Source: Anaerolineae bacterium (GTDB taxonomy: Bacteria > Chloroflexota > Anaerolineae > Anaerolineales > Anaerolineaceae). From it: a DNA stretch of 62,423 nucleotides. The first letter of the stretch is position 1; each line of letters begins with the position of its first letter. The notes beneath the pieces were generated by a model, which searched no databases, had not been told where the DNA came from, and was given only the letters and a program-made list of their open reading frames with translations. Location: contig JABLWW010000018.1 in the NCBI GenBank assembly GCA_013178295.1, forward strand, positions 1 to 62,423, in the 5' to 3' direction. Positions 53,004-61,563 of this stretch are shown piece by piece. A program made the translations under genes and the position numbers.

Positions 53004-53516
53004 TTATGCGGGGAACAAAATGGCTTCTGGAGGCATACGTCCTTTGGGGCGCTCGATGAGTTCGATGGTAACGCCAATGGCGTTTTCTGTATCCAAATAG
53101 GCATAGTACCCGTCTCCATCAAGCCCAAAACCGCTGCCTTCCATGATCACTTCAAAACCCGCGCGTTTGGCTTCTGCCAGTGCTTCTTCCATGTTTTCGA
53201 CCAGCACACCAAAATGATGCACGCCGTAGCCGTGTTCCTTGACAAAATCCGCATAAATTGTGCTACCTTCTACGATCTCAATTAACTCGACGCGCATGTC
53301 GCCAAAATAGGATAGCGCCACCCGCATCTTGTATTCGGCGGGTTTGCCGTGATAGGTCATTTTTTTGACCAGCGGCTTAGCGTAGGTGTAAATATGCCAG
53401 TTGCCAATGCCAAACTGCTTCCAATAATTTTCGACTGCCTCTTCCAAATGGGGTACCAGGATGGCTAGCTGAGCAATGCCGTTTTTGAGAAAATCAACCT
53501 TTTTCGCATTTGTCAT
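53004..53516 (-). CDS. VOC-family (glyoxalase/epimerase-like) protein
   Basis: A 170-aa protein with two beta-alpha-beta-beta-beta modules: IAQLAILVPHLEEAVENYWKQFG and VHHFGVLVENMEEALAEAKRAGFE, with metal-ligand candidates in the second His (GVHHFGV) and Glu (VTIELIE). It resembles methylmalonyl-CoA epimerase/Glyoxalase_4 relatives, but the substrate is unknown. It follows ptsI after 40 bp on the same strand and may be the last gene of the PTS operon. Confidence 0.85.
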   Translation of the reverse strand: MTNAKKVDFLKNGIAQLAILVPHLEEAVENYWKQFGIGNWHIYTYAKPLVKKMTYHGKPAEYKMRVALSYFGDMRVELIEIVEGSTIYADFVKEHGYGVHHFGVLVENMEEALAEAKRAGFEVIMEGSGFGLDGDGYYAYLDTENAIGVTIELIERPKGRMPPEAILFPA

Positions 53517-53556
53517 GGTTCAAGGAATCTAAATGTAGGTTGAAAGCGGGTCGGGT

Positions 53557-55275
53557 TTAATTGGGCAGCAGACTCTTGAGATAGTTAATCACCTCAATAT
53601 GGCTTCCCATAGACAGGGCCTGTTGAGCAACTTCTTTGGCGCGTGCAAGCGACCACTGCCGGATGGTCTGCTTGACGCCTGGGATGTTCGGCGCAGCCAT
53701 GCTGAACTCATCCAGTCCCATACCGAGCAGCAATGGAACTGCCATTTTCTCCCCCGCAAGCTCGCCGCAAAGACCGACCCACTTGCCGTTTTTGTGGGCT
53801 TCTTCAATTGTGATTGCAATCAGTTTAAGCACAGCAGGGTTATAGGGACTTGCCAGCGCCGCCACGCGGTCGTTTGTTCTGTCCACAGCCAAAGTGTACT
53901 GGGTAAGGTCGTTTGTCCCGATGCTGAAGAAATCCACAATGGGTGCCAGATGGCCAGTCAGCAACGCGGCGGAGGGTACCTCGATCATGATGCCAAATTG
54001 CACTTTGCTGGCAATAGCTTTTCCCTGCGCGGTCAGGCGGGAGCGCACCTCGTCAAAAATTTCTCGGGCGCGTTTCACCTCCTGCACACCGGAGACCATT
54101 GGCAGCATGATACGCAGGTCGGCGTTTACGCCTGCCAAGAGCAGGGCTTCAAATTGGTTAGCGAGAATATCTGGTCGTTCCCAAATCATACGGATGCCGC
54201 GCCAGCCGAGAAAGGGATTGGCTTCTTCTTTCAGTCCCAGATAGGGAACGCTTTTATCACCGCCGATATCCAGCGTACGAACCACCAACGGACGCCCATC
54301 CAGGATGTCCATCACCTTTTTGTAAATGAAAATCTGTTCGTCCAGGTTGAGCAGCTCCGTGCGGTCCAGATACAGAAATTCTGTGCGAAAAAGACCAACA
54401 CCTTCTGCGCCCATTTCTACCGCTTTTTCAGCATCTTCAATTCCGCCGATGTTTGCTACTACCTCGACCCTGTGTCCATCCAAAGTAGCGGCAGGCTGAT
54501 TTTTTGCAGAAAGTAATGCCTGACGTTCTGCCTCCCACAAACGGCGCTTCTCTTTGGCCGTTTCCAATTCATCCAGAGCGGGACCAAAGACTACCTCTCC
54601 ATTTTCTCCGTCAAGAATCGTGAGCGTGTCGTTTTCTATTTCGTTGTAATCGAACGCCACACTGACGACAGCCGGGACTCCCAAACTGCGGGCAAGAATG
54701 GCAGTATGCGAAGTGGGCCCGCCTTTGGCAGTACACAACCCAAGAATTTTAGTCTTGTCAAATTGCACTGTATCCGATGGGGTCAGATCGTCTGCAATGA
54801 TAATGGAGGGCTGACTCAAAGCTTCTGTGAGACCTTCTTCTTTACCTTGCAGGCAGCGTAATAAGCGGTCAGCCACATCTTTGATATCCTGAGCGCGGGC
54901 TTTGAAGTATGGATCGTCCAGTTCAGCGAAGGCGGCGGCGGCTTCATCGAAGGTGGTTTTTACCGCTGCTTCGGCGTTCAGGTTGCGGCACAATATAGCG
55001 TTTTTGATGTCGTTCATCATCTCAACGTCATCCAGGAATTCGCGGTGTGCCTGAAAAATTGCCGCTTCTGCTTCGCCGATATCCTTAAGAGTTTTTTCTT
55101 CCAGTGCCAGAAGCTGACGACGAGCCAGGTTCATCGCCGCGTTCAAACGCATCCACTCTGCTTGTGGGTCATTGACGCGTTCCATACTTACAGCGCCAGC
55201 TTTTACTGGATGGTAAATCCAGGCTGGGCCATAACCAATCCCGGGCGAAGCAGGTATTCCTTGGTAGCGGCGCAT
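53557..55275 (-). CDS. ptsI: PTS Enzyme I (PEP-protein phosphotransferase)
   Basis: A 572-aa Enzyme I. The phosphorylated His is in GGPTSHTAILARSLGVPAV, the PEP-binding part in FRTEFLYLDR, RTLDIGGDKSVPYLG and FFSIGTNDLTQY, and the catalytic Cys in VGLCGELAGE. It takes phosphate from PEP and gives it to HPr, encoded 2 bp upstream. Its place inside a glucitol-type PTS operon shows it is dedicated to, or at least coexpressed with, this transporter. Confidence 0.96.
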   Translation of the reverse strand: MRRYQGIPASPGIGYGPAWIYHPVKAGAVSMERVNDPQAEWMRLNAAMNLARRQLLALEEKTLKDIGEAEAAIFQAHREFLDDVEMMNDIKNAILCRNLNAEAAVKTTFDEAAAAFAELDDPYFKARAQDIKDVADRLLRCLQGKEEGLTEALSQPSIIIADDLTPSDTVQFDKTKILGLCTAKGGPTSHTAILARSLGVPAVVSVAFDYNEIENDTLTILDGENGEVVFGPALDELETAKEKRRLWEAERQALLSAKNQPAATLDGHRVEVVANIGGIEDAEKAVEMGAEGVGLFRTEFLYLDRTELLNLDEQIFIYKKVMDILDGRPLVVRTLDIGGDKSVPYLGLKEEANPFLGWRGIRMIWERPDILANQFEALLLAGVNADLRIMLPMVSGVQEVKRAREIFDEVRSRLTAQGKAIASKVQFGIMIEVPSAALLTGHLAPIVDFFSIGTNDLTQYTLAVDRTNDRVAALASPYNPAVLKLIAITIEEAHKNGKWVGLCGELAGEKMAVPLLLGMGLDEFSMAAPNIPGVKQTIRQWSLARAKEVAQQALSMGSHIEVINYLKSLLPN

Positions 55276-55277
55276 AT

Positions 55278-55556
55278 TTACTCCTCGCTTGAAAAGTTAT
55301 TTTGAATGAGCCTTTCGAGCGCATCAAGAACTTGTTGAGAATCTGGACCTTCGGAGACAATGCGAATAGTTTGTCCTTTTGTAACCGATAGCAGCATCAA
55401 TTTCACCGGGCTGGCGCCGTTGGCAGGTCCTTTTCCTGTGGAAATATTGTAAACTTGGACATCGGCGTTATATAATTTGACCGTTTTGACAAATTGCGCA
55501 AGCGGTCTGGCGTGTAGTCCTGCGTCATGTTGGATGGTGAGACTGATTTCGGGCAT
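55278..55556 (-). CDS. ptsH: HPr phosphocarrier protein
   Basis: A 92-aa HPr. The active His is in HDAGLHARPLAQFV (His15-type position), and NGASPVKLMLLSVTKGQTI is the regulatory-Ser region, where the usual K-S-I/L is altered to A-S-P; HPr kinase regulation is therefore doubtful. It passes phosphate from Enzyme I to IIA-glucitol. Confidence 0.95.
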   Translation of the reverse strand: MPEISLTIQHDAGLHARPLAQFVKTVKLYNADVQVYNISTGKGPANGASPVKLMLLSVTKGQTIRIVSEGPDSQQVLDALERLIQNNFSSEE

Positions 55557-55568
55557 ATCTCTCCTTGC

Positions 55569-56195
55569 TCAATAAGCGGCTATGCTGATTTCACACAGAC
55601 GGTTGACGAGAGCGGCGCGCGCCAAAGTGGACTGCGGGGTCTCGCCCCAAACGAACAAACCGCAGCCGCGGATCAGGATAGCATGATTTTCGGGGATGAG
55701 CTTTCTTAGGGTGTCATCGTCGGGCGTGGAGCAGGTTATTCTGTCAATGGCTTCTTCGGCATCTTCAAAGAGGGCAAAATCTGGCAGTGCCATCTTGTGA
55801 GCCATAATCATAGACGCCACTGGCTGACATAATATAGCAAAATTGGCATTCGTGAGGTTATAAGCCAGACAGTGCCAACCCACCCGTCGGCTTGGGATCA
55901 CACTGGTTACGGTTTTTCCGTTGTTGAGGTTGAGGATGGCAAAGTCTCCCTCGCTGAGTGTTGCAAAGGAGGTGTTTAGGGCGTTGATTGCCATTTTGCC
56001 ACCAGATAAGCGCATGCTGAGCTCGCTTAAAAAACCCGCCGACAGATTCTCTTCAAACACAAGGCGGGCTGTTTCGACCAGAATTTTTCGGGTGGGACGG
56101 GGAATGAGAATATCGCGGGTTTTTGCATCGACCCGAGATTGCGTACTAACAAGGTTAACCACATCTCTGGATGCTTTGCTTAAGCGGTCGAACAT
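55569..56195 (-). CDS. Degenerate class II aldolase/adducin-like protein
   Basis: A 208-aa protein with the class II aldolase fold pattern: TARLVFEENLSAGFLSELSMRL, EGDFAILNLNNGK, and VPSRRVGWH-like block. But the Zn ligands are missing: the usual HxH (avvHtHp) reads AILCQPV, and the later His (lrnHGl..wG) reads IRGCGLFVWGE. So it is probably not a metal aldolase; it may bind a sugar phosphate non-catalytically or have a new reaction. ATG 56195 is chosen, as GAGG lies just upstream. It is in the PTS operon, 12 bp before HPr. Confidence 0.7.
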   Translation of the reverse strand: MFDRLSKASRDVVNLVSTQSRVDAKTRDILIPRPTRKILVETARLVFEENLSAGFLSELSMRLSGGKMAINALNTSFATLSEGDFAILNLNNGKTVTSVIPSRRVGWHCLAYNLTNANFAILCQPVASMIMAHKMALPDFALFEDAEEAIDRITCSTPDDDTLRKLIPENHAILIRGCGLFVWGETPQSTLARAALVNRLCEISIAAY

Positions 56196-56210
56196 GCAAA
56201 ACCTCGTTTT

Positions 56211-56252
56211 GTTTAGCCCGGGGAAAAACACTATTTGCTCCCCGGGCTAAAC
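56211..56252 (-). other. Perfect 14-bp intra-operon hairpin
   Basis: GTTTAGCCCGGGGA (56211-56224) pairs fully with TCCCCGGGCTAAAC (56239-56252) around a 14-nt loop, between the SAF oxidoreductase stop and the aldolase-like start. No U tract follows on the minus strand, so RNA stabilisation or processing is more likely than termination. Confidence 0.75.
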
Positions 56253-56257
56253 ATTGT

Positions 56258-57568
56258 TCAGTGTGTTGAAGACGCAACCATCTTGTCCTGCAATTTGCGC
56301 AGGTGAAAGATCGTCTGATTTTCATCCAACTCCACCTCATCATAATGCAGGGGTTCGCCTTTTTTGATATCTTTGATGACAGTAGCGCCAACGCTGATGC
56401 CCAGCGGGACAAGTCCTTCACGTTGGGTTATCTTTGCTTTTTCGATGCAACCATAGACCGTATAGCCGCCCAAGTAGTCAATTTTTTCTCCGGTTTTGAG
56501 GTCGCGTTTGGCAATGGCGATGGTTTCTGCGACTGGTGGGCGCAGTGTGTTCAGGGTGACTTCGCCGTATAGGTAAGCGCGGGCGATGGCGATGGGCGTT
56601 TCAAGGTTACAAAGATGATATGGGCGGTACAGTGCCCAATAGTTGCCGTGACCATTGACTTTTAGATATCTGAGGTCGGCAATGATTTTGGGCTGGTCGG
56701 TGGTGATGATGATGAATACACCGGGAGCGATATCCCCCACTGCGTAATCAACCACATATTTTTGACTCATAATACCGCCGTCGGTCTTTGGGACATAGAC
56801 CTTTGCCAGGTCTTTGAGGGCAACTTGCGGGCCGTGAGCGCCGCGCACATCGGGCACATAGCCAATACCATTTCCAATAGAAGTCATTTCGACCATCGTT
56901 TTTGTGCCGTCCACAAAGGAAGCCAGCATTTTTGCACTGGCATTCACGGCTTTTGCTCTGGCTGCCAAAGTGTCCGGGTTTGCGCTGGGGTCAAGTGGAT
57001 TGTTCTTCCCTTTAACTACGGACACGATTTCAAAGCCAAGCGCGTCAGCAAAATCGTATAACTCTTTGAGCGTTCCCGGCTCATCTCCTGTGGTGAGGGT
57101 GTAAACATTGCCGGTAGTTTGCGCCATCTTTGCCAGATAAAACCCCACCGTGCAGTCGGTTTCTACGTTCATGTTGACGATGTGTTTTCCGGCAAGGATG
57201 GCTTGATGGCAGACCACCGCGCCAACTTCTGGGATGCCAGTGCACTCAACCAGCACATCAATTTCGGGGATGTTGACGATTAATTCGGAAGAATGGCTGG
57301 CTATGCGTTTGCCTTGCTCAATGAGCTTTCCTGCCTTGAGGGGGTCGTTCTCTTCCTGAACGACAATGGACGGATCAACACTGGCTTCCTGGTAAGCCAT
57401 TTTTGCCCGATTGGGGATGACATCTGCCACGGCGACAATGCGCATACCGACCATCTTTTCGATTTGGCTGATAAGCCCGGTACCCATTTGACCAGCGCCA
57501 ACCAGCCCAACGCGCAAGGGTGCGCCGCTGGTTTGTTCATTTTCACGCAATAAATCTTTTAGAGACAT
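56258..57568 (-). CDS. SAF-domain NAD(P)-dependent oxidoreductase
   Basis: A 436-aa protein. The N-terminal Rossmann fold is LRVGLVGAGQMGTGLISQIEK (20-40), with TGIPEVGAVVCHQAILAGKHIVNMN in the homoserine-dehydrogenase-like region, and the C-terminal 100 residues form a SAF domain (TIAIAKRDLKTGEKIDYLGGYTVYG, IKKGEPLHYDEVELDE). This architecture includes the Brucella DXR-like (DRL) protein, from memory. In this operon it would take the place of sorbitol-6-phosphate dehydrogenase (SrlD), which is absent, and oxidise or isomerise the imported polyol phosphate. GAGGAAAT precedes the ATG. Confidence 0.85.
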   Translation of the reverse strand: MSLKDLLRENEQTSGAPLRVGLVGAGQMGTGLISQIEKMVGMRIVAVADVIPNRAKMAYQEASVDPSIVVQEENDPLKAGKLIEQGKRIASHSSELIVNIPEIDVLVECTGIPEVGAVVCHQAILAGKHIVNMNVETDCTVGFYLAKMAQTTGNVYTLTTGDEPGTLKELYDFADALGFEIVSVVKGKNNPLDPSANPDTLAARAKAVNASAKMLASFVDGTKTMVEMTSIGNGIGYVPDVRGAHGPQVALKDLAKVYVPKTDGGIMSQKYVVDYAVGDIAPGVFIIITTDQPKIIADLRYLKVNGHGNYWALYRPYHLCNLETPIAIARAYLYGEVTLNTLRPPVAETIAIAKRDLKTGEKIDYLGGYTVYGCIEKAKITQREGLVPLGISVGATVIKDIKKGEPLHYDEVELDENQTIFHLRKLQDKMVASSTH

Positions 57569-57580
57569 ATTTCCTCAATT

Positions 57581-57940
57581 TCAATCATAAATCATAATTT
57601 TTTCACCAACTTGTATGGGCGGCAGTGGCTTCTCCTCCAAACACACATCTCCTGGCATTTCTACGCTTGTGTTGCCGTTGAATTTGAGCACCAGGTGCCC
57701 CAAATTGGCGAGGTTGGTATTAGCAACTTCGCCAATTGCGAGTACCTTGTAAGATGACTCTCCGATTTGTACTGAATCGTTAACGGCAAGCGGTTTGATC
57801 AGATTTTTGCCGTCATGAATGATGGCAAATTCCATCAATTCTTCGGGCGCGCTTTCGCCAAAAAGAATCAGGATGTGGTTTTCGATAAATTCAGAAACCA
57901 TCGGCCCGATAAAGGTAACGTTTGCCTGATATTTGATCAT
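57581..57940 (-). CDS. srlB: PTS glucitol/sorbitol-type IIA component
   Basis: A 119-aa protein of the SrlB family: ILILFGESAPEELMEFAIIHDGK contains the phosphoryl-accepting His, followed by IGESSYKVLAIGEVANTNLANLGHLVLKFNG. It receives phosphate from HPr and passes it to IIB. The ATG is at 57938-57940; a longer open frame adds 34 unlikely residues. Confidence 0.93.
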   Translation of the reverse strand: MIKYQANVTFIGPMVSEFIENHILILFGESAPEELMEFAIIHDGKNLIKPLAVNDSVQIGESSYKVLAIGEVANTNLANLGHLVLKFNGNTSVEMPGDVCLEEKPLPPIQVGEKIMIYD

Positions 57941-58106
57941 ATAATCACCAGAATAAGGAGAGTAGGCAAAAAAATTTAACATCACAAAGATAAGCGCCGG
58001 AACAACAGTCTTTTGGGGATAAACGCGGCCGGCGCTCATCATATTTTGTTATTCTTTTTTGCCCCTGGGTCATCAGCAAAGAGGATCAGGGGAGGATTGC
58101 TGGCGA

Positions 58107-58490
58107 TTATTCGATCAATTCAATGTCTTCCACCCGAACCCCTGAGCAGAATAACTCTTCGGTAATAAAGCGGAACAAGGGACCGGATGGCGAGGTTGGG
58201 TAAATATCCACCGTCGGCACTTTCTTCATGGGGTAAACGCCAACGCGTGCCGTACCGCCGCAGTCGATCACGGCTACGGCAATTTCTTCAAAAGCCGCCT
58301 TGGATTTAAAGCCATCGAACGGGGTTCCACCGGTCAAGTCCGCAATGCGTTGGGCAACCGGATGTATCCCGCCGCCTGTTACCGAGTAAATCAGGTCGCG
58401 ACCGGGTTTTGGTTCAATGACTAAGGGCCCGCCCCAACCTTTAGGTCCTTTTTTGATGCGGACTTTACGGTATTTTTTTTCTTCCGCCAT
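58107..58490 (-). CDS. srlE: PTS glucitol-type IIB component (split from SrlE)
   Basis: A 127-aa protein equal to the N-terminal half of SrlE: GPKGWGGPLVI, IYSVTGGGIHPVAQRIADLTG, VAVIDCGGTARVGVYPMKKVPTVDI; the Cys of DCGG is the likely phosphorylation site. In E. coli this domain is fused to the second IIC half; here they are separate genes with a hairpin between. The last residues (VRVEDIELIE) add a short acidic tail. Confidence 0.92.
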   Translation of the reverse strand: MAEEKKYRKVRIKKGPKGWGGPLVIEPKPGRDLIYSVTGGGIHPVAQRIADLTGGTPFDGFKSKAAFEEIAVAVIDCGGTARVGVYPMKKVPTVDIYPTSPSGPLFRFITEELFCSGVRVEDIELIE

Positions 58491-58589
58491 ATTATCAACT
58501 CCTTGATTAAGATACGATATAATTAACCTGATAAGGTGTCTGGCAGTCCGTTCATGGCGATGAGGAAGACTGCCGGTCTCCCTTTCCTC

Positions 58590-58620
58590 CGCCGGTTGCG
58601 GTTGTTGACCGCAACCGGCG
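58590..58620 (-). other. Perfect 13-bp hairpin between IIC2 and IIB genes
   Basis: CGCCGGTTGCGGT (58590-58602) pairs fully with ACCGCAACCGGCG (58608-58620), 5-nt loop, no U tract. It lies in the 166-bp gap where SrlE is split and could stabilise or process the mRNA. Confidence 0.75.
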
Positions 58621-58656
58621 CTCCATGGGGAAGAAAGGAAGGTAGAGGGTTACACT

Positions 58657-59190
58657 TTATAGACCAAAGCTTGCCAGCCAGGCAATAATCACTGCAATAG
58701 GACCGGTGATCAAACGGGAGAACAATACCGCTGGCACGCCTACTTCCACTGTTTCAGGTTCTGCTTCGCCCAGCGCAAGACCAACGGGGATGAAGTCGCA
58801 GCCAACTTGAGGATTGATAGCGAAGAGGGCGGGCAGCGCGGTAGCTACTGGCAGGGTTTTATTGGCAAACAGCGTTCCCAGCAGGGTGCCGATGATCTGT
58901 GCAATAACTGCGCCGGGTCCCAAAAGAGGTGATAAGACAGGCAGCCCAATGATCAGAGACATGATGACCAGACCAATGGGATTATTGGCAAGCGGCTGCA
59001 GCGCTTTAGCCAGCAGGTCGCCAACGCCGGTAACCAGGATGAGGCCAATCACGAATGAGATGAACGCCATGAAGGGCAAGATGTTCTTAATCACCTGGTC
59101 AATCGAATCACGTCCGGCTTGATAGAGGGCGCCAACAACTTTACCAACGCCGCGCCCGATTTTTTCGAGGAATTTGGTTATGCCTTTCAT
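58657..59190 (-). CDS. PTS glucitol-type IIC2 component (SrlE C-terminal half)
   Basis: A 177-aa membrane protein: IKNILPFMAFISFVIGLILVTGVGD, GLPVLSPLLGPGAVIAQIIGT, LFAINPQVGCDFIPVGLALGEAEPETVEVGVPAVL. These match the membrane part of SrlE. With SrlA it forms the transport channel. The ATG at 59190 is preferred to 59196. Confidence 0.92.
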   Translation of the reverse strand: MKGITKFLEKIGRGVGKVVGALYQAGRDSIDQVIKNILPFMAFISFVIGLILVTGVGDLLAKALQPLANNPIGLVIMSLIIGLPVLSPLLGPGAVIAQIIGTLLGTLFANKTLPVATALPALFAINPQVGCDFIPVGLALGEAEPETVEVGVPAVLFSRLITGPIAVIIAWLASFGL

Positions 59191-59203
59191 TATCAAGTCT
59201 CCT

Positions 59204-59734
59204 TTATGCTGCTTCTTTCTTCCACATAATGGCGGTGATGCGTTCGGTTACAATGCCGCGGATCAGAATGACAACCAGACCGACCAGCAAATAGCGGACA
59301 GCAAGTGCTGCCACAGCCTCATGCCCATAAGCTTGTTCCACACCCTGAGCAATGCCCATCCAGACGAATAACTCCCCGGGGTTGACGTGGGGAAAGATTC
59401 CAAGCGGCGGGTGTACAAACGAAACTGCTGAATCGTAGAAGGCGGGTTTGAGTTTCTCGGGCAGAAAGCGCCCCATGGTGTATGCCATTGGGTTGCACAA
59501 AACAAACACCGAAACGAATGGGAGCACAACATATCGCAGGGGAATATATAGCACACCCGGTTTGGCTGCAAATTTACCCAGGGCATCCACTCTTTCAGGC
59601 CCGATGAGGGCAATAAGCGCATTGACTGCGGTCATCAGAACGATTACCAGGGGAATAATTCCGGTAACCAGACTGGTGAAGACCTCGCCGCCTTTTTGAA
59701 AGATGCCGATAAACCATATAGCTGCTTGTACCAT
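59204..59734 (-). CDS. srlA: PTS glucitol-type IIC component
   Basis: A 176-aa SrlA-family membrane protein: GIFQKGGEVFTSLVTGIIPLVIVLMTAVNALI, FLCNPMAYTMGRFLPEK-like block (VFVLCNPMAYTMG), FVHPPLGIFPHVNPGELFVWMGIAQGVE. It forms the substrate path with IIC2. It is the first transport gene, after gutM, in the operon. Confidence 0.94.
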   Translation of the reverse strand: MVQAAIWFIGIFQKGGEVFTSLVTGIIPLVIVLMTAVNALIALIGPERVDALGKFAAKPGVLYIPLRYVVLPFVSVFVLCNPMAYTMGRFLPEKLKPAFYDSAVSFVHPPLGIFPHVNPGELFVWMGIAQGVEQAYGHEAVAALAVRYLLVGLVVILIRGIVTERITAIMWKKEAA

Positions 59735-59828
59735 TGCGAGATTCCTCCTTAGAAGAGATTAGATGAAATACAAACGAAACAAATTTTTTACACAGAAGTT
59801 GAAAGTAATGTATTTATCTATGATGAAT

Positions 59829-60320
59829 TTATATTGCTGCCTCCTTTCTTCCACAACATGCGTCTGTGTTAATTGGCTGGCTAGTAGTGGCAGTTTCCAG
59901 TTCGGAAACGCTGGTTGTGTCGTTGCCAGCCTTCGCTGCTTTATCTGCAATATCCTGGCGGTGTTTTAATGCGTTGCGAAGCGCCAAAAGCAGTTTCTTA
60001 TTGATTTGTAAGTCAATCTGGTCGTCCAAAAGGTCGCTGATAGGACGCCCGGCAAGTCCAGGAATTGGCTTGAGCCCTGCCAGAATAGTCCAGCCGGATA
60101 ATTGCTCAGCGTGAACGATGCGTTCATTCTGGTCAATGACCAGAGCGGCGTAAACCCGTCTTTTCCATGCCGAACCTTCCATGCCAATCCAGACCAGCCC
60201 ATCACGGCGCAGCTGCGCTATTCGCTTATAGTATCGTCGTAGCTGCCAGTAGGAGAAGCCAAACTGGATCAGCCAAGCAATCCCCAGCATCAAAATGATT
60301 GCCGAAGCAGCTGAATTCAT
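59829..60320 (-). CDS. gutM: GutM-type glucitol operon activator
   Basis: A 163-aa protein: an N-terminal hydrophobic helix (residues 8-25), then WQLRRYYKRIAQLRRDGLVWIGMEGSAWKRRVYAALVID and VHAEQLSGWTILAGLKPIPGLAGRPISDLL, all GutM family features. GutM activates glucitol operons in E. coli; with its membrane helix it may sense transporter state. The C-terminal 30 residues are unconserved and end in a Cys pair (DACCGRKE). Confidence 0.9.
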   Translation of the reverse strand: MNSAASAIILMLGIAWLIQFGFSYWQLRRYYKRIAQLRRDGLVWIGMEGSAWKRRVYAALVIDQNERIVHAEQLSGWTILAGLKPIPGLAGRPISDLLDDQIDLQINKKLLLALRNALKHRQDIADKAAKAGNDTTSVSELETATTSQPINTDACCGRKEAAI

Positions 60321-60348
60321 CTAAGTGTGCCCTTTCCGTTTGTCCACA

Positions 60349-61341
60349 TTAGCGCATTCCCATCCTTTTTAAGATTTGTAAAACGCCGGTAGCGGCTTCC
60401 TCGTCGGTTACCAGCATGTTGATCAGTTCTGCCCGCGCTGCGCCAATAATGGGCAGGATAACCGCATGTCCGCCAGCAATTGCCAGCTTTAATGGGATGA
60501 CAGTCAGTTCCTCGGCGGTAATCCCAATCACGCGCCTGGTCAAAGGAATATCCAACAAATTTCCATAAAGATCAAATCCTCTGGCACACACGTCCCCAAC
60601 CGCGCCATTTTGTTCCAATTCCTCAAGCTGTTCCACGGTAAGATAACCAGCCTGGAGCAGGCTGGAGTGCTCGGGGTCAAGAGAGTCTAATTCGAGCAGT
60701 GCCAGTTCAATGTTGGCAAACTGTTCCAGAACCTTCTGAATATGAGGGTCTCTGATGAGCGCGTCGCGGGTGGCTTCGCTATCAACTACAGCAGGGGCTG
60801 GCAAGGGTGTGTAATAGCCAATGAGGGCACGGGCAAGGTTACGGGCTAGCTCCTGTCCGTCCATTTGCGTGCTCAACGATTGGATCGAGCCGGTCATCTG
60901 AACTACATGCACACCAAAGACTGTTCCCGGGCGCATTGCATTGATGGTTTCATAGACCGCCGGGCCCCAAGTGACGCCGATGGTCATATTGTTGTGCACG
61001 AGTTCTTCAACTAGTCTGGCGGCAAGGTTTCCCAAATGGCGCAGCCGCTGCGGGTATCCGTGGATGCTGTGCACCATCACTCGCACGGCTTTGAGGTTAA
61101 GCAGCTCTTCCAACTCGCGCTCCATATCGGTGCGCCGTCGGTGCGGATGGTGAATGCGGACTTCAATGATCCCCTGCTTACGGGCTTCGAGAAGCAGACG
61201 GGATATCATCGAAGGCGAGTATCCTGTCCGCGTTGCTATCTCTGTTTGGGTCAGCCCGTCTTCAAAATGCAGGGCAGCGATCTCGGCAAGAAATGCCAAC
61301 CTGTCTGCATTCTGACTACCGCTTGTTGAGGGTTTGCTCAT
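60349..61341 (-). CDS. SorC-family sugar-responsive regulator
   Basis: A 330-aa protein with an N-terminal helix-turn-helix (GLTQTEIATRTGYSPSMISRLLLEARKQGIIEV, about 29-61) and a SorC/CggR-type sugar-phosphate-binding domain (TIGVTWGPAVYETINAM, VHVVQMTGSI, ARGFDLYGN, VIGITAEEL.V, VILPIIGAARAELINMLVTDEEAA). As first gene of the operon, it probably responds to the phosphorylated PTS product and binds the dyads just upstream. Confidence 0.93.
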   Translation of the reverse strand: MSKPSTSGSQNADRLAFLAEIAALHFEDGLTQTEIATRTGYSPSMISRLLLEARKQGIIEVRIHHPHRRRTDMERELEELLNLKAVRVMVHSIHGYPQRLRHLGNLAARLVEELVHNNMTIGVTWGPAVYETINAMRPGTVFGVHVVQMTGSIQSLSTQMDGQELARNLARALIGYYTPLPAPAVVDSEATRDALIRDPHIQKVLEQFANIELALLELDSLDPEHSSLLQAGYLTVEQLEELEQNGAVGDVCARGFDLYGNLLDIPLTRRVIGITAEELTVIPLKLAIAGGHAVILPIIGAARAELINMLVTDEEAATGVLQILKRMGMR

Positions 61342-61345
61342 AACT

Positions 61346-61452
61346 ATTCAAAATTGTGAATCACCTGTGGAAATTATGAATATTATAAAGAATTGTAAAA
61401 TTCATGTCAATAGGTTCACGAAAATTGTTGCAAAAGATTCATAAAATTGAAT
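61346..61452. promoter_or_regulatory. Two matching dyad operators upstream of the sorC gene
   Basis: Two copies of ATTCA-N6-TGAAT lie at 61346-61361 and 61437-61452 (centres 91 bp apart). AAATTGTGAAT (61351-61361) is also echoed by AAATTATGAAT (61371-61381), exactly 20 bp on, and GAATT-N4-AATTC lies at 61390-61403. The cluster fits a cooperative or looping operator for the tetrameric SorC family. Confidence 0.6.
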
Positions 61453-61563
61453 CAGTGAAGAGAGAAAATATGCCAAATCTGTGGGTCAAATCTCCTGCGA
61501 GGGGGCAAATGCCCTGCCTGAGGCGGGTACAGAAAGGCGGGAGGGATATGTTATGCTCTGATT

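Follow-up and report, generated by a model that had tools for sequence, protein, structure and literature searches.

A glucitol-type phosphotransferase operon with a DXR-II-type enzyme in an Anaerolineae bacterium and its predicted role in the catabolism of a branched polyol

In an Anaerolineae bacterium (assembly GCA_013178295.1, contig JABLWW010000018.1), a glucitol-type phosphotransferase system (PTS) is encoded in one operon with an SAF-domain oxidoreductase of the DRL family. The stretch of DNA analysed, 62,423 nucleotides at its full length, is referred to here as the window, and the genome containing it (3.95 Mb, 97.8% complete, 4.95% contamination) as the window genome. We propose, with a probability of roughly 0.55, that the operon allows the cell to take up and degrade 2-C-methyl-D-erythritol (ME) or a closely similar branched polyol. 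The PTS would import ME and phosphorylate it to 2-C-methyl-D-erythritol 4-phosphate (MEP); the DRL enzyme, running in reverse, would oxidize and rearrange MEP to the straight ketose 1-deoxy-D-xylulose 5-phosphate (DXP) while reducing NADP. DXP would then be cleaved to acetyl-CoA and D-glyceraldehyde 3-phosphate by a pyruvate/acetoin dehydrogenase-type E1/E2/E3 complex, with formation of NADH. The SorC regulator, judging by its family, would sense a phosphorylated intermediate, and in operon genomes with the MEP pathway an IspD branch could divert MEP to isoprenoids. We infer the substrate, the direction, and the use of DXP by E1/E2 from gene content, enzyme classes, and linkages as read in the sequences.

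By sequence, the SAF enzyme of the window is a type II DXP reductoisomerase (DXR-II) with the corresponding predicted activity. The nearest solved structures are 3upl (E 2.5e-99) and 3upy (E 2.8e-99), and homology to the Brucella enzyme is full-length (residues 13-434 with 3upl). According to the available text of PMC3847144, 3upy is Brucella DXR-II, which forms MEP from DXP, its substrate is anchored by Lys191, Lys193, and Thr229, and its dimer interface includes Arg320, Tyr322, Glu174, and Phe178. The window enzyme has all of these residues as well as Gly121, His250, and Val351. The PTS-linked homologues number 62 and come from 61 loci, one of which contributes two DRL genes; all 62 have K191 and K193, and 60 have T229. 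Of 13 DRL genes from Chloroflexota that are not accompanied by a PTS, 8, 6, and 2 retain K191, K193, and T229, respectively. The enzyme most likely acts on the product of the PTS. A preliminary description of this DNA had expected it to act on the polyol phosphate, and the family and the likely substrate agree with this, but from the DXR-II type one expects the carbon skeleton of a branched polyol phosphate to be rearranged and not just a plain dehydrogenation. The same description pointed to a substrate other than sorbitol and to a new route. Both points are supported, and sorbitol is held unlikely on the evidence of the DXR-II residues, E1/E2, and IspD.

DXR-II has so far been listed among the isoprenoid enzymes, with a distribution that has not been explained by other traits and that includes organisms lacking the MEP pathway (available text of PMC3847144; restated in PMC13001223). 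DXR-II from such organisms (Chloroflexus, Finegoldia) was active in complementation tests, and the mismatch was attributed to ancient redundancy and gene loss; the available text proposes no catabolic role and contains none of the terms "catabol," "sorbitol," or "glucitol" (PMC3847144). Profile searches of the window genome found neither IspF nor IspG. DXR-I was not found there either: the C-terminal DXR-I model had no match, and the single PF02670 match (33/129 positions, 22.9 bits, cut-off 21.7) is an aspartate-semialdehyde dehydrogenase by reading of its sequence. Each of the four MEP-pathway models detected its family in 9 or 10 of 14 control genomes (9/14 for IspF and IspG). HMG-CoA reductase is present in the window genome, while the lack of a match to HMG-CoA synthase there carries little weight, as the same model also misses two archaeal controls. 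The organism probably uses mevalonate, and the absence of matches to DXR-I, IspF, and IspG together with the presence of HMG-CoA reductase suggests that its DXR-II is without isoprenoid use and is not a MEP-pathway enzyme in this organism.

The gene-neighbourhood search suggested in the preliminary description found the pairing of SAF oxidoreductase and glucitol PTS outside this genome, recurring in four phyla. DRL_cat was detected in 79 of 400 Chloroflexota genomes searched and EII-GUT above its cut-off in 14 (G082 and G139 fell below it and were excluded). In 14/14 of these genomes the two share a contig and their starts are separated by 2.4-2.9 kb; the genomes are not independent (8 are from one family, f30, and 5 of the 8 from one genus). 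A set of related loci, fetched by the profile of PTS-linked enzymes, comprises the best 80 of at least 575 confirmed candidates; seven Chloroflexota loci were added to make a set of 87. Glucitol PTS genes lie within 6 kb of DRL in 54 of the 80 loci (25 from Bacillota, 14 from Chloroflexota, 12 from Actinomycetota, and 3 from Spirochaetota), a share that is biased by the query and that includes L081 solely for a 42% IIB match on the opposite strand. SorC homologues were found in 47/80.

It is probably not the aldolase-like protein of the operon that carries out the downstream step but a thiamine-dependent E1/E2 complex with its genes elsewhere in the genome. Counted over the whole locus, E1-alpha occurs in 46, E1-beta in 45, and E2 in 41 of the 80 related loci. 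Close-range counts were confined to the 45 loci whose flanks extend 6 kb or more on each side: E1-beta is within 6 kb of DRL in 28 of the 34 that have IIC or IIB nearby, and the remaining 11 consist of four Salibacterium loci, which have IIA nearby as well as E1/E2, and seven loci with no glucitol PTS gene, none of which has E1/E2. Three loci with shorter flanks (L074, L075, L096) have DRL and E1 and no glucitol PTS gene in the sequence covered; the Hakubella run (L074) reads SorC-DRL-E1-alpha-E1-beta-E2, followed by the start of a likely E3. The E3 cluster was found in 21 of the 87 loci (domains confirmed for one), and the E1_dh, Transket_pyr/C, and lipoyl-E3-binding-acyltransferase domains were confirmed in the proteins of locus L039. 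The 3.95 Mb window genome has nine E1-alpha paralogues of the 2-oxoacid/acetoin dehydrogenase type, a density at which an E1-alpha gene should seldom fall within a few kb by chance.

The window genome has a SorC-E1-alpha-E1-beta-E2 run on contig C4, near 129 kb. Its E1-alpha, E1-beta, and E2 are 56, 71, and 44% identical to the proteins of the L039 operon (BLAST similarity only), and a quick tree made without bootstrap places its E1-beta as sister to those of eight Chloroflexota operons (SH-aLRT 99). In a genome of the same family (G343), E1/E2 are inside the PTS operon, with an E1-beta that falls outside the Chloroflexota group. The C4 complex is likely the orthologue of the operon complexes, and in the window genome two operons, each headed by SorC, seem to share the module between them; the candidate palindromes of the two operons differ from each other. 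The proposed cleavage of DXP draws on the conserved linkage, on chemistry (DXP, like acetoin, is an acyloin), and on this likely orthologous complex on another contig. Purified pyruvate dehydrogenase makes 1-deoxyxylulose from pyruvate and glyceraldehyde, and in vivo the DXP level rises about 20-fold with a mutant AceE, so this enzyme class can handle the DXP skeleton (available text of PMC3424233). As to the other E1-alpha paralogues of the window genome, several of those examined adjoin SorC regulators, short-chain dehydrogenases/reductases (SDRs), or transketolases, and a split transketolase pair adjoins an E1-alpha/E1-beta pair on contig C20 at about 133.7-137.6 kb (L143:10707-14577).

IspD homologues are present in 13 of the 87 loci (11 of the 80, plus L042 and L043). 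In ten loci from nine genomes IspD is part of the same-strand run (L042, L071, L106, L112, L120, L122, L127, L133, and L043 and L072, which are the same); it is on the opposite strand in L066 and L117 and more than 5 kb away in L116. All ten of the IspD proteins tested score best with the ispD model TIGR00453, above ribitol-5-phosphate cytidylyltransferase; those of L042, L071, and L116, and in a separate test L043, pass its cut-off of 181 bits, and the remaining seven have 135-180 bits. The presence of IspD in operons points to MEP. One pathway can accommodate IspD with its action on MEP, DXR-II as the link between MEP and DXP, a PTS that phosphorylates polyols on uptake, and a complex that could cleave an acyloin.

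Several points weigh against breakdown of ME by this route. The DXR equilibrium favours MEP, and reverse flux would need a downstream pull. The E1/E2 genes are not within the window operon. Two residues typical of DXR-II are less consistently kept in the PTS-linked homologues (H250 in 39/62 and V351 in 26/62), with the window enzyme having both. The L039 E1-beta exceeds the pyruvate dehydrogenase subfamily cut-off (367 vs 321 bits), while the L039 E1-alpha reaches neither of the two pyruvate dehydrogenase equivalog cut-offs (356 vs 394 and 253 vs 411 bits), so the substrate is not told by these models. The other seven E1-betas of the window genome are elsewhere in the tree, mostly on long branches and some among the operon copies of other phyla, and a single clean clade of operon E1-betas was not obtained. 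IspG, searched for in 54 distinct operon genomes, was found in 34, where biosynthetic use is possible, and not found in 20, several of which are metagenome bins (the four with known completeness, G343, G372, G150, and G118, are 95-99% complete). On the supporting side, IspD is near the operon in 12/34 genomes with IspG vs 0/20 without (two-sided p 0.002) and in the same-strand run in 9/34 vs 0/20 (one-sided p 0.01), p values that overstate the support since the carriers are mostly from two lineages (Actinomycetota and Ktedonobacteria).

If the substrate is a different branched polyol, for example apiitol, then the PTS would form apiitol phosphate and DRL would convert it to xylulose or ribulose 5-phosphate for the pentose phosphate pathway. 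The DXR-II reaction type would suit such a substrate, and L062 and L111 have the PTS and DRL with no E1/E2 found in the sequence covered. This is nonetheless unlikely: the frequent E1/E2 would be unexplained, since cleavage of an ordinary ketose phosphate would yield glycolyl-CoA, IspD would be unexplained as well, and the DXR-II enzymes assayed by others produce MEP (available text of PMC3847144). Catabolism of a linear polyol, in which DRL would simply dehydrogenate glucitol 6-phosphate, xylitol phosphate, or a similar compound, would be in keeping with a transporter of the glucitol family and with an NAD-binding domain that is common to plain dehydrogenases, but is quite improbable given that the substrate-anchoring residues of DXR-II are kept and that E1/E2 and IspD are left without a role.

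Supply of isoprenoids has been considered in two forms, with DRL making MEP from DXP or with imported ME salvaged as MEP for the MEP pathway. The presence of IspD in some operons, the known formation of MEP by DXR-II (available text of PMC3847144), and the Hakubella SorC-DRL-E1-E2 run, with no PTS in the sequence covered and IspG present in the genome, would all be accommodated. Against this, operon genomes without detected IspG include ones that are 95-99% complete, and MEP would be a dead end in the window genome; a biosynthetic role of this kind is highly improbable. Degradation of ME through DXP remains the preferred reading, and a broader claim can be attached to it at slightly less than even odds: that DXR-II is primarily catabolic, that a SorC/PTS/DXR-II/E1-E2-E3 route for ME via DXP is widespread, with an IspD branch in some organisms, and that isoprenoid use is a secondary recruitment.

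The structural model of the aldolase-like protein (pLDDT 88.7) has a class II aldolase fold and matches 2opi best (E 5.7e-13). At the three positions that we take, after fuculose-phosphate aldolase, to be metal ligands, histidines 1 and 3 are missing in 8/8 aligned members and position 2 is Gln in the window protein, which has none of the three. Seven relatives are 21-30% identical to it. The protein is restricted to Chloroflexota loci among the 87, five of which also have E1 (L035, L039, L054, L056, L061); it is taken as non-enzymatic or repurposed. Cleavage of the DRL product by this protein, with E1/E2 unrelated to the pathway, would fit the position of the gene directly after DRL in the window and in several Chloroflexota loci, but with the ligands lost and with E1 also present in five of its loci, this is extremely improbable.

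The eleven genes named in the preliminary description are all present, in the order given there and on the minus strand from 61341 to 53004, as determined by searches of open reading frames and domains (Table 1). The intergenic gaps are 2-166 bp with preferred start codons. The IIA start is probably at 57940 and not 58042, as the family match opens at an inner ATG of the open reading frame; the corrected starts of the IIBC C-terminal part and of the aldolase-like gene are also ATG codons.

Table 1. Genes and candidate operator region of the glucitol-type PTS operon in the window.
Feature	Coordinates	Strand	Evidence
Candidate operator region upstream of sorC	61376..61453		Palindrome GATTCATAAAATTGAATC at 61436-61453 and inverted repeat at 61376-61405; 0.02 expected by chance in the window
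SorC/DeoR-type sugar-binding transcriptional regulator	60349..61341	-	NCBIfam DeoR E 7e-59, LsrR E 2e-33, each under cut-off
GutM	59829..60320	-	Pfam GutM E 6.9e-22
Glucitol-type PTS IIC (SrlA)	59204..59734	-	Pfam EII-GUT E 3.5e-71; NCBIfam SrlA above cut-off
EIIBC-Gut C-terminal part, own gene	58657..59190	-	Pfam EIIBC-GUT_C E 2.9e-44
IIB part of EIIBC-Gut, IDCGG motif	58107..58490	-	Pfam EIIBC-GUT_N E 1.4e-49
PTS IIA	57581..57940	-	Pfam PTSIIA_gutA E 3.6e-36, match from residue 37 of the longer open reading frame
DRL/SAF oxidoreductase, DXR-II type by sequence	56258..57568	-	Pfam DRL_cat E 8.7e-59; PDB 3upl E 2.5e-99
Class II aldolase-like protein without metal ligands	55569..56192	-	Pfam Aldolase_II E 6.9e-19
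HPr	55278..55556	-	Pfam E 1.1e-21
PTS enzyme I	53557..55275	-	NCBIfam TIGR01417, 601 bits vs cut-off 342
VOC-family protein	53004..53516	-	Pfam Glyoxalase_4 E 2.7e-17; PDB 3gm5 E 4e-19

IIC, IIB, the IIBC C-terminal part, and IIA are all above the Pfam cut-offs for the glucitol type, and the operon itself encodes the enzyme I (EI) and HPr needed to feed such a system. The active-site motifs of EI (His and Cys), HPr (His), and IIB (Cys), whose residues we presume to be catalytic, are present. Although EI and HPr had been described as a dedicated set, they are not an additional one: a genome search found no second ptsI or ptsH, and the operon copies are the only EI and HPr found in the window genome. 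A second PEP-utilizer match was rejected as EI, its sequence reading as pyruvate phosphate dikinase. SrlD, reported as absent in the preliminary description, is indeed lacking from the eleven-gene run, which has no SrlD-like SDR; the rest of the genome was not searched for srlD. VOC homologues are near DRL genes in 2 of the 80 related loci (L058 and L110, the latter from a spirochaete), and the VOC protein is a possible epimerase or lyase, with an epimerase role being a guess.

Several other arrangements were observed around DRL genes. A galactitol-type PTS IIC is also present in L042, L045, L054, L059, L070, L111, L116, and L126 (domain confirmed for L111) and may form an additional transporter that takes up a related polyol. 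In L078, L089, L094, L104, and L110, which have no glucitol PTS, DRL is accompanied by an FGGY kinase and by a zinc alcohol dehydrogenase, a possible kinase-based variant. The window genome has a second DRL, which keeps the K, K, and T residues, on contig C20 at about 112.7-118.7 kb (L034:5707-11693), in a run of PfkB kinase, GntR/UTRA regulator, split transketolase N and C, DRL, and a xylose-isomerase-like TIM barrel; L131 has the same transketolase pair with a sister DRL. Could this locus be a kinase-fed variant with another thiamine enzyme? In 19 loci (for example, L091:11383-11727), a small conserved protein, about 114 residues long and containing CxxC pairs, is encoded near DRL.

The Escherichia coli glucitol/sorbitol PTS operon consists of srlAEB, gutM, and srlD. 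The window operon shares with it the IIC, IIBC, IIA, and GutM families and differs in having no SrlD in the run, DXR-II, a split EIIBC, SorC, and its own EI and HPr. In the D-apionate oxidoisomerase pathway, an oxido-isomerase linearizes a branched carbon skeleton for catabolism; the proposed pathway likewise places an oxido-isomerase on a branched skeleton, while the D-apionate pathway has a different substrate and no PTS. The E1-E2-E3 proteins of related operons have the same domains as acetoin and pyruvate dehydrogenase complexes, but are linked to DRL and are predicted to cleave DXP, with the window genome copy being on contig C4. Compared to Brucella DXR-II (3upl, 3upy), the window enzyme is alike over its full length and in the substrate and interface residues named in the available text of PMC3847144, but adjoins a transporter, is in a genome without detected DXR-I, IspF, or IspG, and has a predicted catabolic direction. 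The open-licence literature searched, with subscription papers outside its scope, describes no bacterial route for consumption of methylerythritol, and no paper found there treats DXR-II together with sorbitol and phosphotransferase. The families are thus known ones in a combination for which no description was found in that literature, and the pathway itself is predicted.

The operon offers a direct and testable reason for the distribution of DXR-II, namely that it is a polyol catabolic enzyme. If this is true, then cleavage of DXP by a complex of the pyruvate/acetoin type would be a natural reaction, and the operon would provide a transporter and enzymes for supplying intermediates of the MEP pathway from outside the cell.

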